A program made the translations under genes and the position numbers. The notes under the pieces are model-generated. The model ran no database searches. It was not told where the DNA came from and worked only from the letters and a program-made list of their open reading frames with translations. From Terriglobia bacterium (GTDB lineage: Bacteria; Acidobacteriota; Terriglobia; Terriglobales; Acidobacteriaceae), in contig JAVUPY010000094.1 in NCBI GenBank assembly GCA_032252755.1, positions 1 to 64,000 of the forward strand: a stretch of DNA of 64,000 bases. The letters run 5' to 3'. Below, piece by piece: positions 2,186 to 4,486 of this stretch. Position 1 is the stretch's first letter; each line of letters opens with the position of its first letter.

Positions 2186-3499
2186 ATGAAAGAAGGAACC
2201 CTGACGGTCGTCGATAACCGGACGAACGTCACGTACACGCTTCCCATCCAGGACAATACGATTCGGGCCATCGATCTGCGGCAGATCAAGACTGACGCGG
2301 ACGATTTTGGCCTGATGACCTATGACCCCGCATTCATGAATACGGCATCTTGCCGCAGTGCGATCACTTATATCGACGGTGACAAGGGTATCCTTCGCTA
2401 CCGCGGGTACAACATCGAGGAACTCGCGGAGAAGTGCTCCTTCCTGGAAGTCGCGTACCTGCTCATCTTCGGCGAACTGCCGGATGAGAAGCAGAAGCAG
2501 GACTGGACCTACAACATCACCCACCACACCATGATCCATGAGAACACGCGGGCCTTCATCGAGCGCTTCCGCTATAACGCGCACCCGATGAACATCCTGT
2601 GTTCGACGGTCGCCGCCCTTAGCATCGTTTATCCGGACTCGCGCGATATCTTCGATCCGGAGAAGCGGATGCTGAACATCATGCGACTGATCGCCAAGAT
2701 GCCGACGCTGGCGGCAGCCAGCTACCGGCATAGCACCGGCTTCCCGTACGTTTATCCCGACAATGACCTGAGCTACACCGAGAACTTCATGAACATGCTG
2801 TGGAAGATGGTGGAGCCCAAGTACGTTGCGAACCCGGTGCTGGCGCGGGCACTCGATGTGCTGTTTATTCTGCATGCGGACCACGAGCAAAACGCGAGCG
2901 CGAACGTGATGCGCGCCGTAGGCAGCGCTCAGACGGATCCGTTCCTCTGCACGGCAGCAGCGGCAGCGGCGCTGGCAGGACCACTGCACGGCGGCGCCAA
3001 TGAAGCCGTACTGAAGATGCTCCAGGTGATCGGGAAGAAAGAGAACATTCCCGGCTTCGTCGAGTCGGTTAAGGCAGGCCATGGCAAACTGATGGGCTTC
3101 GGGCACCGCGTCTATAAGAACTATGATCCGCGCGCGAGAATAATCAAGCAGGTTGCGAATGAAGTTTTGGGCGTCACCGGCACGACGGCGAAGCTTGAAA
3201 TGGCGCTGGAACTGGAGCGGATCGCTCTCAGCGACGAGTACTTTATCAAGCGCAAACTGTATCCGAACGTCGACTTCTACTCCGGGTTGATTTACGAAGC
3301 GATGGGGTTCAGGCCGGAGATGTTCACGGTACTGTTCGCGATTCCTCGCACCGCCGGCTGGCTGGCGCAGTGGCTCGAATTGATCACGGATCCGGAACAG
3401 AAGATTTCGCGTCCGCGACAGATATTCGTTGGGCACACGCTACGCAAGATCGGCGAATCAATGACGAAAGAGAACAAAGAGACAGTAGGCGCGCGGTAA
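2186..3499 (+). CDS. gltA: Citrate synthase (type II)
   Basis: Condenses oxaloacetate and acetyl-CoA to citrate, the first step of the TCA cycle; cytoplasmic. The 437-residue length fits hexameric bacterial type II enzymes. Visible motifs are LHGGANEAV near residue 267 (substrate-binding His), GFGHRVYKNYDPRAR near 303-317 (catalytic His and citrate-binding Arg) and FYSGLIYEAMGF near 364 with the catalytic Asp region just before it. The ATG follows GGAGG with good spacing. A strong terminator comes 13 bp after the stop, so the gene is monocistronic. Nothing unusual is seen in active-site residues. Confidence 0.97.
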   Translation: MKEGTLTVVDNRTNVTYTLPIQDNTIRAIDLRQIKTDADDFGLMTYDPAFMNTASCRSAITYIDGDKGILRYRGYNIEELAEKCSFLEVAYLLIFGELPDEKQKQDWTYNITHHTMIHENTRAFIERFRYNAHPMNILCSTVAALSIVYPDSRDIFDPEKRMLNIMRLIAKMPTLAAASYRHSTGFPYVYPDNDLSYTENFMNMLWKMVEPKYVANPVLARALDVLFILHADHEQNASANVMRAVGSAQTDPFLCTAAAAAALAGPLHGGANEAVLKMLQVIGKKENIPGFVESVKAGHGKLMGFGHRVYKNYDPRARIIKQVANEVLGVTGTTAKLEMALELERIALSDEYFIKRKLYPNVDFYSGLIYEAMGFRPEMFTVLFAIPRTAGWLAQWLELITDPEQKISRPRQIFVGHTLRKIGESMTKENKETVGAR

Positions 3500-3511
3500 T
3501 TTCGTGGAGGT

Positions 3512-3546
3512 AAGAAGGGCGGCCGGATGCGGCCGCCCTTCTTTTT
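3512..3546 (+). terminator. Intrinsic terminator of citrate synthase gene
   Basis: A perfect 10-bp stem AAGGGCGGCC / GGCCGCCCTT with a 6-nt loop, followed by CTTTTT on the plus strand. It lies just after the gltA stop. Confidence 0.9.
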
Positions 3547-3558
3547 GCGCAAAGTGAA

Positions 3559-3586
3559 AACTCCTCGCCGGACTAGGCGAGGAGTT
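3559..3586 (-). terminator. Second downstream hairpin of the micropeptide unit
   Basis: An 11-bp perfect stem (AACTCCTCGCC with GGCGAGGAGTT), loop GGACTA, followed on the minus strand by TTTTCAC. It sits distal to a first terminator at 3608-3629 and would act as a backup stop for leftward transcription towards gltA. Confidence 0.55.
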
Positions 3587-3607
3587 GCAAGCTTATGGGT
3601 CCCAAAC

Positions 3608-3629
3608 TTAAAAGCGGGCTCTCGCCCGC
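3608..3629 (-). terminator. Intrinsic terminator of the lysine micropeptide unit
   Basis: On the minus strand, six nucleotides after the TAG of the 16-residue ORF, GCGGGC-GAGA-GCCCGC is followed by TTTTAAG. The compact GC stem and U-run are typical of Rho-independent termination. Confidence 0.8.
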
Positions 3630-3635
3630 GCGTAA

Positions 3636-3686
3636 CTACTTTTTCTTCTTGGCGGTCTTCTTAGCAGCTTTCTTCTTTGCCGGCAT
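3636..3686 (-). CDS. 16-residue Lys/Ala micropeptide
   Basis: ATG 3684-3686 to TAG 3636-3638 encodes MPAKKKAAKKTAKKKK. It has an excellent Shine-Dalgarno sequence (AGGAGG, 3692-3697, about 5 nt from the ATG), an upstream promoter-like pair (TTGACA, 17 bp, CAAAAT at 3784-3812) and an intrinsic terminator just after the stop. The sequence resembles the lysine/alanine tails of histone H1-like and HU-like bacterial proteins but has no folded domain. Nucleic-acid binding is a fair guess from charge alone. Function is unknown. The complete set of expression signals is the main support that the peptide is real. Confidence 0.65.
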   Translation of the reverse strand: MPAKKKAAKKTAKKKK

Positions 3687-3699
3687 GGATGCCTCCTAG

Positions 3700-3719
3700 A
3701 ACCTTCTCCCTCGAAGGTT
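3700..3719 (-). promoter_or_regulatory. Hairpin next to micropeptide ribosome-binding site
   Basis: AACCTTC-TCCCTC-GAAGGTT forms a 7-bp stem with a 6-nt loop in the 5' untranslated leader, ending only 2-3 nt from the AGGAGG site. Its position suggests it could set ribosome access or transcript stability. Confidence 0.4.
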
Positions 3720-3783
3720 AGATTTGGGTCCCTAAATCGAACCGTCATACAACTGGTTGCCTAATAACGGTTCCTATCGCAAG

Positions 3784-3812
3784 ATTTTGTGGCGACTCGA
3801 TGTTGCTGTCAA
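3784..3812 (-). promoter_or_regulatory. Promoter of the micropeptide unit
   Basis: On the minus strand TTGACA (3807-3812) is followed after 17 bp by CAAAAT (3784-3789), matching sigma-70-type spacing. The predicted leader to the ATG at 3686 is about 90 nt. No other minus-strand gene lies between it and gltA. Confidence 0.55.
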
Positions 3813-4023
3813 TACTTTTTTTCATTTCGGTGAATGAGCAACTGGAGTCCTCTTCGTTCTCGCGCGCTCTTTCAATTTCTTCATGGATGAGTTTGCGCGC
3901 CGACTCGTGTCGTGCAAAGCCGCATTATCAGCGGTTCCACAAGAATTCCACTCACTCGCGAACTCTCGGACTGAGCACAACGCAGTGACCGTTGAACTTT
4001 AATTCTGTACGCAAAAAAAAAAT
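3813..4023. other. Gene-free stretch between micropeptide promoter and PilZ terminator
   Basis: About 210 bp with no supported gene. It is fairly AT-rich, with a run of ten A residues near 4013-4022. Open frames lack ribosome sites. It probably contains only upstream promoter context. Confidence 0.4.
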
Positions 4024-4058
4024 GCAAAAAAAAGGAGCCGCCCTGCTCGGGCGGCTTT
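4024..4058 (-). terminator. Intrinsic terminator of the PilZ gene
   Basis: On the minus strand GCCGCCC-GAGCA-GGGCGGC is followed by TCC and eight T residues, 20 bp after the PilZ stop. Confidence 0.85.
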
Positions 4059-4075
4059 GCAAGGAGGAGTAATGC

Positions 4076-4486
4076 TCAAGAGTAGGTTGCTTCGATGCGG
4101 CACGCTTCCGTGAGCAAACTGTGAAGCTCGGCCTCATCTCGTACCGTGAACTCGAATCCATAGCGGTGAGAAACGGAATTCCGTACGATTGCGGGAATGA
4201 TTGTTTCCTGCTCGCTGCCCAGGGAGCGAAATGCCAGACAAACTTCTTCGCCGACTTCTAATTCCCCCCAGATGATGGCCGCTGTTCCCTCGCGGCTCAG
4301 ATTGCGGCAGTAACCCTGAAAACGAGATCCGCTCTTCGTGACCGCGGCTACCAGAGTTTCAACTTCGCTACGCTGGCTGCGGCGCCGCTCTCTTACATAG
4401 GTGGATGTGAGTTCCGGTAGGACTGTTTCGTCGGTGCTGTTCGAGAACTGCTGTCGAACCCGGGCCCTGATGCTCAGAAAATTCAT
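4076..4486 (-). CDS. PilZ domain protein
   Basis: A 136-residue single-domain protein. The middle has the basic RRRSQR segment (about residues 34-39), matching the RxxxR c-di-GMP-binding signature of PilZ, followed by a beta-rich part (LVAAVTKSGSRFQGYCRNLS, GEEVCLAFRS, HRYGFEFT). The D/NxSxxG part appears as NLSREG, which fits the second motif. Start ATG 4484-4486 is preceded by GAGGGAGA. It stands alone, with its own terminator and a perfect CRP-type palindrome about 190 bp upstream. The likely role is a c-di-GMP effector. Partner unknown. Confidence 0.75.
   Translation of the reverse strand: MNFLSIRARVRQQFSNSTDETVLPELTSTYVRERRRSQRSEVETLVAAVTKSGSRFQGYCRNLSREGTAAIIWGELEVGEEVCLAFRSLGSEQETIIPAIVRNSVSHRYGFEFTVRDEAELHSLLTEACRIEATYS

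Follow-up and report, generated by a model that had tools for sequence, protein, structure and literature searches.

We report a free-standing gene of 16 codons, on the minus strand of a stretch of 64,000 nucleotides of DNA (the window), for a strongly basic peptide that resembles, in composition, the tail of an H1-like protein. That the Lys/Ala open reading frame (ORF) is a real gene is near certain. We consider it probable, though not settled, that the peptide binds DNA or another polyanion; this function is inferred, and neither expression nor peptide data are at hand.

A complete minus-strand expression unit had been placed at 3559-3812 by the preliminary description, and each of its elements was found there. 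A promoter scan located a -35 element TTGACA (3807-3812) and, 17 bases from it, a -10 element CAAAAT (3784-3789), the sole site given by the scan in 3450-4100 (shuffle mean 0.2). The leader contains the 5' stem-loop of the transcript (3739-3773; fold z -5.2), which covaries at the equivalent position in 86 sequences, and a short hairpin AACCUUC..GAAGGUU (3700-3719) with a fold z of only -1.5; the latter encloses a AAGGGAGAA-type element, present in the window as GAGGGAGAA. The ribosome-binding site AGGAGG (3692-3697) is followed by the ORF MPAKKKAAKKTAKKKK (3636-3686, ATG at 3686, stop TAG), the product of which is composed of Met, Pro, Ala, Lys and Thr only, with nine Lys and four Ala among 16 residues. 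Behind it lie hairpin 1, resembling an intrinsic terminator (3629-3614, then TTTT to 3610; fold z -3.3), and the terminator-like hairpin 2 (3586-3559, then a short TT tail to 3557; fold z -5.6), all on the minus strand. Over both strands of 3450-4100 there are six terminator-like sites (shuffle mean 1.1). Chance is properly tested not by local shuffles but by conservation of the arrangement.

The convergent neighbour on the plus strand (2186-3499) was recognized from its sequence as gltA (citrate synthase). As gltA runs towards the unit, no same-strand gene was seen nearby downstream of it in the window. The ORF upstream of the unit on the same strand (4076-4486) is followed by a terminator-like hairpin of its own (4056-4036), and the unit looks monocistronic. 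Its transcript would be an RNA of about 200 nt with no other gene on it, ending at the terminator of the unit; expression and the transcript ends are inferred. The upstream ORF (minus strand, 136 codons) is PilZ-like by eye.

A DNA search of 61 genomes gave matches in 23 at E ≤ 0.01, the best of which span leader and ORF. Two kinds of locus were present among them: class 1, with a promoter and leader of the window type, and class 2, in which promoter and leader differ, AAGGGAGAAT stands directly before the ATG and the peptides have 12-34 residues. A sequence-only model of class 1 from the -35 element to the stop codon (R1, six sequences) had matches at E ≤ 0.01 in 281 of 300 genomes from the same family; this is an upper bound that includes partial ORF matches, possibly to class 2 or to longer Lys-rich proteins. 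Ninety R1 loci were viewed (L148-L237), including the window (L151), a class 2 locus of the same genome (L236) and a locus without such an ORF (L237). An intact Lys/Ala ORF was present at all 87 further class 1 loci from this Terriglobia-type Acidobacteriota family, mostly of 12-18 codons and once of 27. The peptides drift in length and order but not in composition. The unit of one relative of the same family (L162) is identical letter for letter in L066.

The class 1 promoter, for which TTGAC plus a -10 of the form C(A/T)NNAT was demanded, was located in 85 of the 87 relatives; the other two (L179 and L222) have TTGACA with a -10 of CAAACT. In the 85, the sixth base of the -35 element is A in 76 and T in nine, and the -10 is CAATAT in 78, CAAAAT in four, CTATAT in two and CAAGAT in one. 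A terminator-like hairpin stands behind the ORF in 75 of 86 relatives tested (one was dropped for Ns), against 13 of 172 shuffles. The usual -10 of class 1, CAATAT or CAAAAT, is non-consensus and usually has CTTG behind it. Retention of such a weak element suggests a special sigma factor or regulator, and the regulation behind it is left unexplained by the reading as a free-standing peptide gene. An inverted repeat around the -10 was rejected as a structure, no consistent covariation being found in one register (isolated z up to 4.2); the sequence conservation at the -10 stands despite this.

The spread of such genes was surveyed with a pattern consisting of the ribosome-site element and the start of the peptide, in one genome for each of 84,980 species. 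At least 117 stretches were found, with about one expected (hand estimate, uniform composition). Among the matches listed, 80 were titled: 71 are acidobacterial, of which 68 encode peptides of 12-30 residues and three longer proteins, and nine are from other phyla. The named carriers among those listed include Edaphobacter, Granulicella, Terracidiphilus and Candidatus Sulfotelmatobacter; the listed matches from elsewhere include a Gemmatimonadota locus (L083) with a 20-residue Lys/Ala peptide and a locus of another phylum (L048) with a short, unrelated-looking ORF. The micropeptide ORF is present in 102 of the 116 parsable loci among the matches listed (the pattern set). A TTGAC with a TATA- or CATA-type -10 precedes it in 92 of the 102, at a spacing of 16-19 (17 in 89), and four of the 102 are class 1 in type (L064, L066, L084 and L103).

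Selection on the peptide was assessed from codon changes. Within 40 disjoint nearest equal-length pairs from 85 class 1 loci, 96 changes were synonymous and 40 nonsynonymous, the synonymous share expected under random substitution being about 22% for this set. Over the 517 codons of the class 1 pairs, 121 changes fell at third positions versus 37 at first and 19 at second positions. When all same-length class 1 pairs were taken, which are more distant and overlap, the counts were 2382 synonymous and 1692 nonsynonymous; the 85 class 1 loci with a located promoter encode 35 distinct peptides. The pattern set, which is mostly class 2, gave 163 synonymous versus 83 nonsynonymous changes in 44 disjoint pairs (no expectation was computed). 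The codon changes are thus mostly synonymous, and the peptide is therefore selected; conservation of the codons with a synonymous-site bias is what had been named beforehand as support for it.

As R1 contains the ORF, its matches are biased towards the ORF, and a second model was therefore built from the promoter and 5' hairpin only (R2; 75 columns, 20 sequences). In 373 genomes of at least 80% completeness it gave 106 matches, distributed over 105 genomes, 104 of which have exactly one; class 1, as R2 sees it, is therefore not shown to be universal within the family. The window itself scores no better than E 0.004 with R2. Of the 106 matches, 105 contain the ORF; in the last, L331, Ns fall within it. 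For the leader-only test 56 of the loci were read, and in 55 the ORF is present, its start lying 35-68 nt beyond the R2 match (33 of 34 for loci not read before); the remaining 50 comprise the window and 49 loci of the R1 set with listed ORFs. Background windows from merR loci contained such an ORF in four of 2126 cases, three of the four being real genes of the same kind. Loss of the start codon or Lys pattern with the RNA structure kept would have refuted the micropeptide gene according to the preliminary description; the opposite was seen, and its claim of a real gene is supported by the ORF kept at leader-only loci and by the mostly synonymous changes.

The leader RNA was analysed separately. 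RNAalifold returned no consensus structure (0.0 kcal/mol) for the leaders of 85 sequences, which align too poorly beyond the first hairpin; the 5' hairpin was therefore tested alone in a fixed register. The register was picked by eye from the same 86 sequences, which favours it. Pairing was found in 58.3% of cells against a shuffle mean of 53.4%, the value being no higher because some relatives shift or bulge the stem; cells changed on both sides numbered 140 against 100.2, and the covariation score was 0.290 against 0.226. None of 500 shuffles reached any of these three values. The other two of the five measures were not above shuffles, namely pairs with both-side change (reached by 466 of 500) and further pair types (116 of 500). 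Relatedness inflates covariation counts; it is kept when the register is slid by 1-3 bases, whereupon pairing falls to 34.6-48.0%. Compared with mononucleotide shuffles, the region behind the promoter is more structured both in class 1 (mean z -1.74, 85 sequences) and in the pattern set (mean z -2.95, 92 sequences). Since the 5' hairpin covaries, the leader is selected too, and leader and peptide both appear to be maintained.

Several identities for the leader were tried and rejected. In several sequences the eye suggests a long-range helix between a GGGCCC-type element of the leader and the 3' UTR, yet swapped pairs did almost as well as own ones (mean rank 0.463 with 0.5 expected, KS p 0.13, 85 sequences; window rank 0.19). 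Binding of CsrA to AGGGA/ACGGA motifs was discarded, PF02599 being found in none of 25 family genomes searched and in one of 41 overall. An identity with 6S RNA was excluded by the sole RF00013 match of the window genome, which is a separate locus (C88:8636-8823); this match lies about 2.4 kb from the class 2 gene of the same contig (L236 in G000:C88, 11252-11340, 20 residues). Rfam gave no match in the window at gathering thresholds and none in eight loci at E up to 1. In L190, L224 and L231, and also in L214 and L232, the CAAGGGA-type element is absent from the leader and present 3' of the ORF in the 3' UTR; no ATG stands close behind it there in L224 and L231, which does not hold for L190. 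It may be that the element serves as a binding motif in addition to being a ribosome site.

The class 1 neighbourhood was compiled in 90 rows (one for each of the 87 relatives, two for the window and one for the class 2 locus L236), with gene names from sequence recognition and not from a family search. merR lies downstream on the same strand in 65 rows, at least 148 nt beyond the stop codon, and is upstream and divergent in three (L206, L221 and L235). A divergent hyuB-like gene precedes in 51 rows and a divergent tdh-like gene in nine. Absences are weak here, the loci ending about 0.4-2 kb from the ORF (3.5 kb in the WIN row of the window). The place beside merR is thus the usual one, to which the window is an exception: gltA converges on the unit, and the only merR match of the genome is on another contig.

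Of 149 genomes from the phylum, 118 were found to encode the MerR protein; 17 of the 118 belong to the family. Of the 101 out-of-family merR loci 53 were read; 22 of them (for example L283-L287) have IHF/HU immediately upstream in the same orientation, and 31 have no such neighbour. One of the 22 also has a Lys-rich ORF, which looks spurious. At the 17 in-family merR loci no IHF/HU gene was found there; the micropeptide lies upstream on the same strand in two and is divergent in two more (L257 and L258). The micropeptide thus often occupies the place where others keep IHF/HU, but a position next to merR is only circumstantial evidence for what the peptide does. HU/IHF genes were present in all 21 relatives searched (one to five each) and the peptide is therefore not replacing HU in the cell; the difference beside merR is a change of neighbour, not proof of replacement.

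These results were weighed against other explanations of the unit. An unlikely one, although it is the most serious of them, is that a regulatory RNA, structured, about 200 nt long and acting in trans, is the main product or shares that role with the peptide, which would then be a second function; such a length, a conserved structure and a short ORF are also features of dual-function small RNAs. The covarying 5' hairpin, its pairing peak at the proper register and the conserved CAAGGGA-type element, found in a few relatives in the 3' UTR and in two of three without a close ATG, agree with it. They are opposed by the retention of the ORF, changing mostly synonymously, at 55 of 56 leader-only loci read and by class 2, in which the same kind of peptide stands behind another promoter and leader. 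Unlike in dual-function small RNAs, every leader-only match that can be read has the ORF along with the leader, and no RNA function in trans has been shown; the lack of an Rfam match, the separate 6S RNA locus and the failed control of the leader-3' UTR helix also count against this explanation. The RNA had been put forward from the start as the possible functional product with the ORF as a by-product. The first half of that alternative keeps some force, the 5' hairpin itself being conserved by covariation, and leader and peptide are both selected.

A short Lys-rich ORF followed by an intrinsic terminator, often with merR downstream (65 of the 90 class 1 rows), also resembles a leader-peptide attenuator, in which translation of the ORF would set terminator readthrough into merR. 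We regard this as improbable. The whole unit is kept with merR upstream and divergent, as in three relatives, and with a convergent gltA and no nearby same-strand gene downstream, as in the window, unlike in attenuators; a regulated gene downstream in the same transcript is not met with in the window. Furthermore, merR stands behind only four of the 102 pattern-set loci, all class 1 in type, and the synonymous bias extends across the ORF as a whole. There is very little to recommend a cationic toxin or bacteriocin-like peptide beyond the short, basic and self-contained character of the gene: where the class 1 leader occurs it is almost always present just once (in 104 of the 105 matched genomes), the neighbourhood is usually conserved, and no hydrophobic stretch or signal peptide was seen by eye in the peptides of the window and its relatives, which on this reading do not qualify as the hydrophobic, membrane-spanning products of type I toxin genes.

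The reading as a free-standing gene for a basic peptide is preferred. Stability and efficient translation of so small an mRNA would most likely be secured by the 5' stem-loop and the strong ribosome site, mRNA stabilization and translation both being inferred. The peptide is probably disordered and would most likely act as an isolated Lys/Ala tail of H1-like or HU proteins, binding DNA, or RNA or polyphosphate, by its charge and helping to organize the polyanion; this is inferred from composition alone. The Lys/Ala-rich composition of such tails is met in the window peptide and its relatives. The H1-like tail proposed in the preliminary description holds to that extent only, as no family model matched and there are no binding data. 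In Pfam and NCBIfam no family was found at E up to 10 for three relatives of 20-30 residues; the window peptide, being below the 20-residue limit, was not among these queries, and searches with such short queries have little power.

Mycobacterial HupB has a basic Lys-rich tail of a composition akin to that of the micropeptide. That tail belongs to an HU protein (PMC5676037, in the part available), whereas no HU fold is encoded by the micropeptide gene; the likeness to HU-type proteins extends to position, some of the other Acidobacteriota having IHF/HU genes next to merR. Lys/Ala-rich repeats are also common to the micropeptide and to AlgP and the H1-like Hc2 of Chlamydia. The AlgP tail consists of KPAA repeats over 154 residues, and Hc2 has 165-237 residues, varying by the number of lysine-rich pentamers, according to the accessible portions of the two reports (PMC9239181; PMC2848022). 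Both proteins are much longer than the micropeptide, which corresponds to the tail-like part alone, of about 12-30 residues and with its own gene. AlgP is a DNA-binding protein with a KPAA-rich tail that is needed for normal spacing of polyphosphate granules (PMC9239181, same portion), and polyphosphate is, by analogy only, a possible target of the micropeptide.

No report of such a peptide family in Acidobacteriota was found in the literature covered, most subscription papers being outside the search. The Lys/Ala composition is of a known kind; what is new is a gene of only 12-18 codons that stands on its own behind a conserved, structured leader. Genes of 12-16 codons are below the usual annotation limits, so that annotation may lack a gene family that is conserved over a large group of soil bacteria. 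To our knowledge, genes of 12 codons rank among the smallest conserved free-standing protein genes. The family offers a clean test of the lower size limit of a protein gene that is conserved and transcribed on its own, and of whether a basic tail with no folded domain attached suffices to organize DNA or another polyanion. With two promoter classes and a structured leader, its regulation lends itself to direct tests in cultured relatives.

A wider proposal is put forward only tentatively: that Acidobacteriota make a structural polycation from genes of 12 codons upwards, under two promoter classes probably serving different conditions, as a detached nucleoid-protein tail acting in trans on DNA, RNA or polyphosphate and often encoded beside merR, in the position that IHF/HU occupies in part of the phylum. 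Five out-of-family R1 loci from a sample of 297 phylum genomes were read (L243, L245, L246, L248 and L249; weaker matches were left out), and all five have a Lys/Ala ORF, of 17-40 codons. The recurrence of the same kind of peptide at these loci and under two promoter classes was counted in favour of the preferred reading as a free-standing peptide gene. Paired Lys/Ala micropeptide ORFs, with differing promoters and leaders, were observed in other families at L245 (1621-1919) and L248 (1564-2002).
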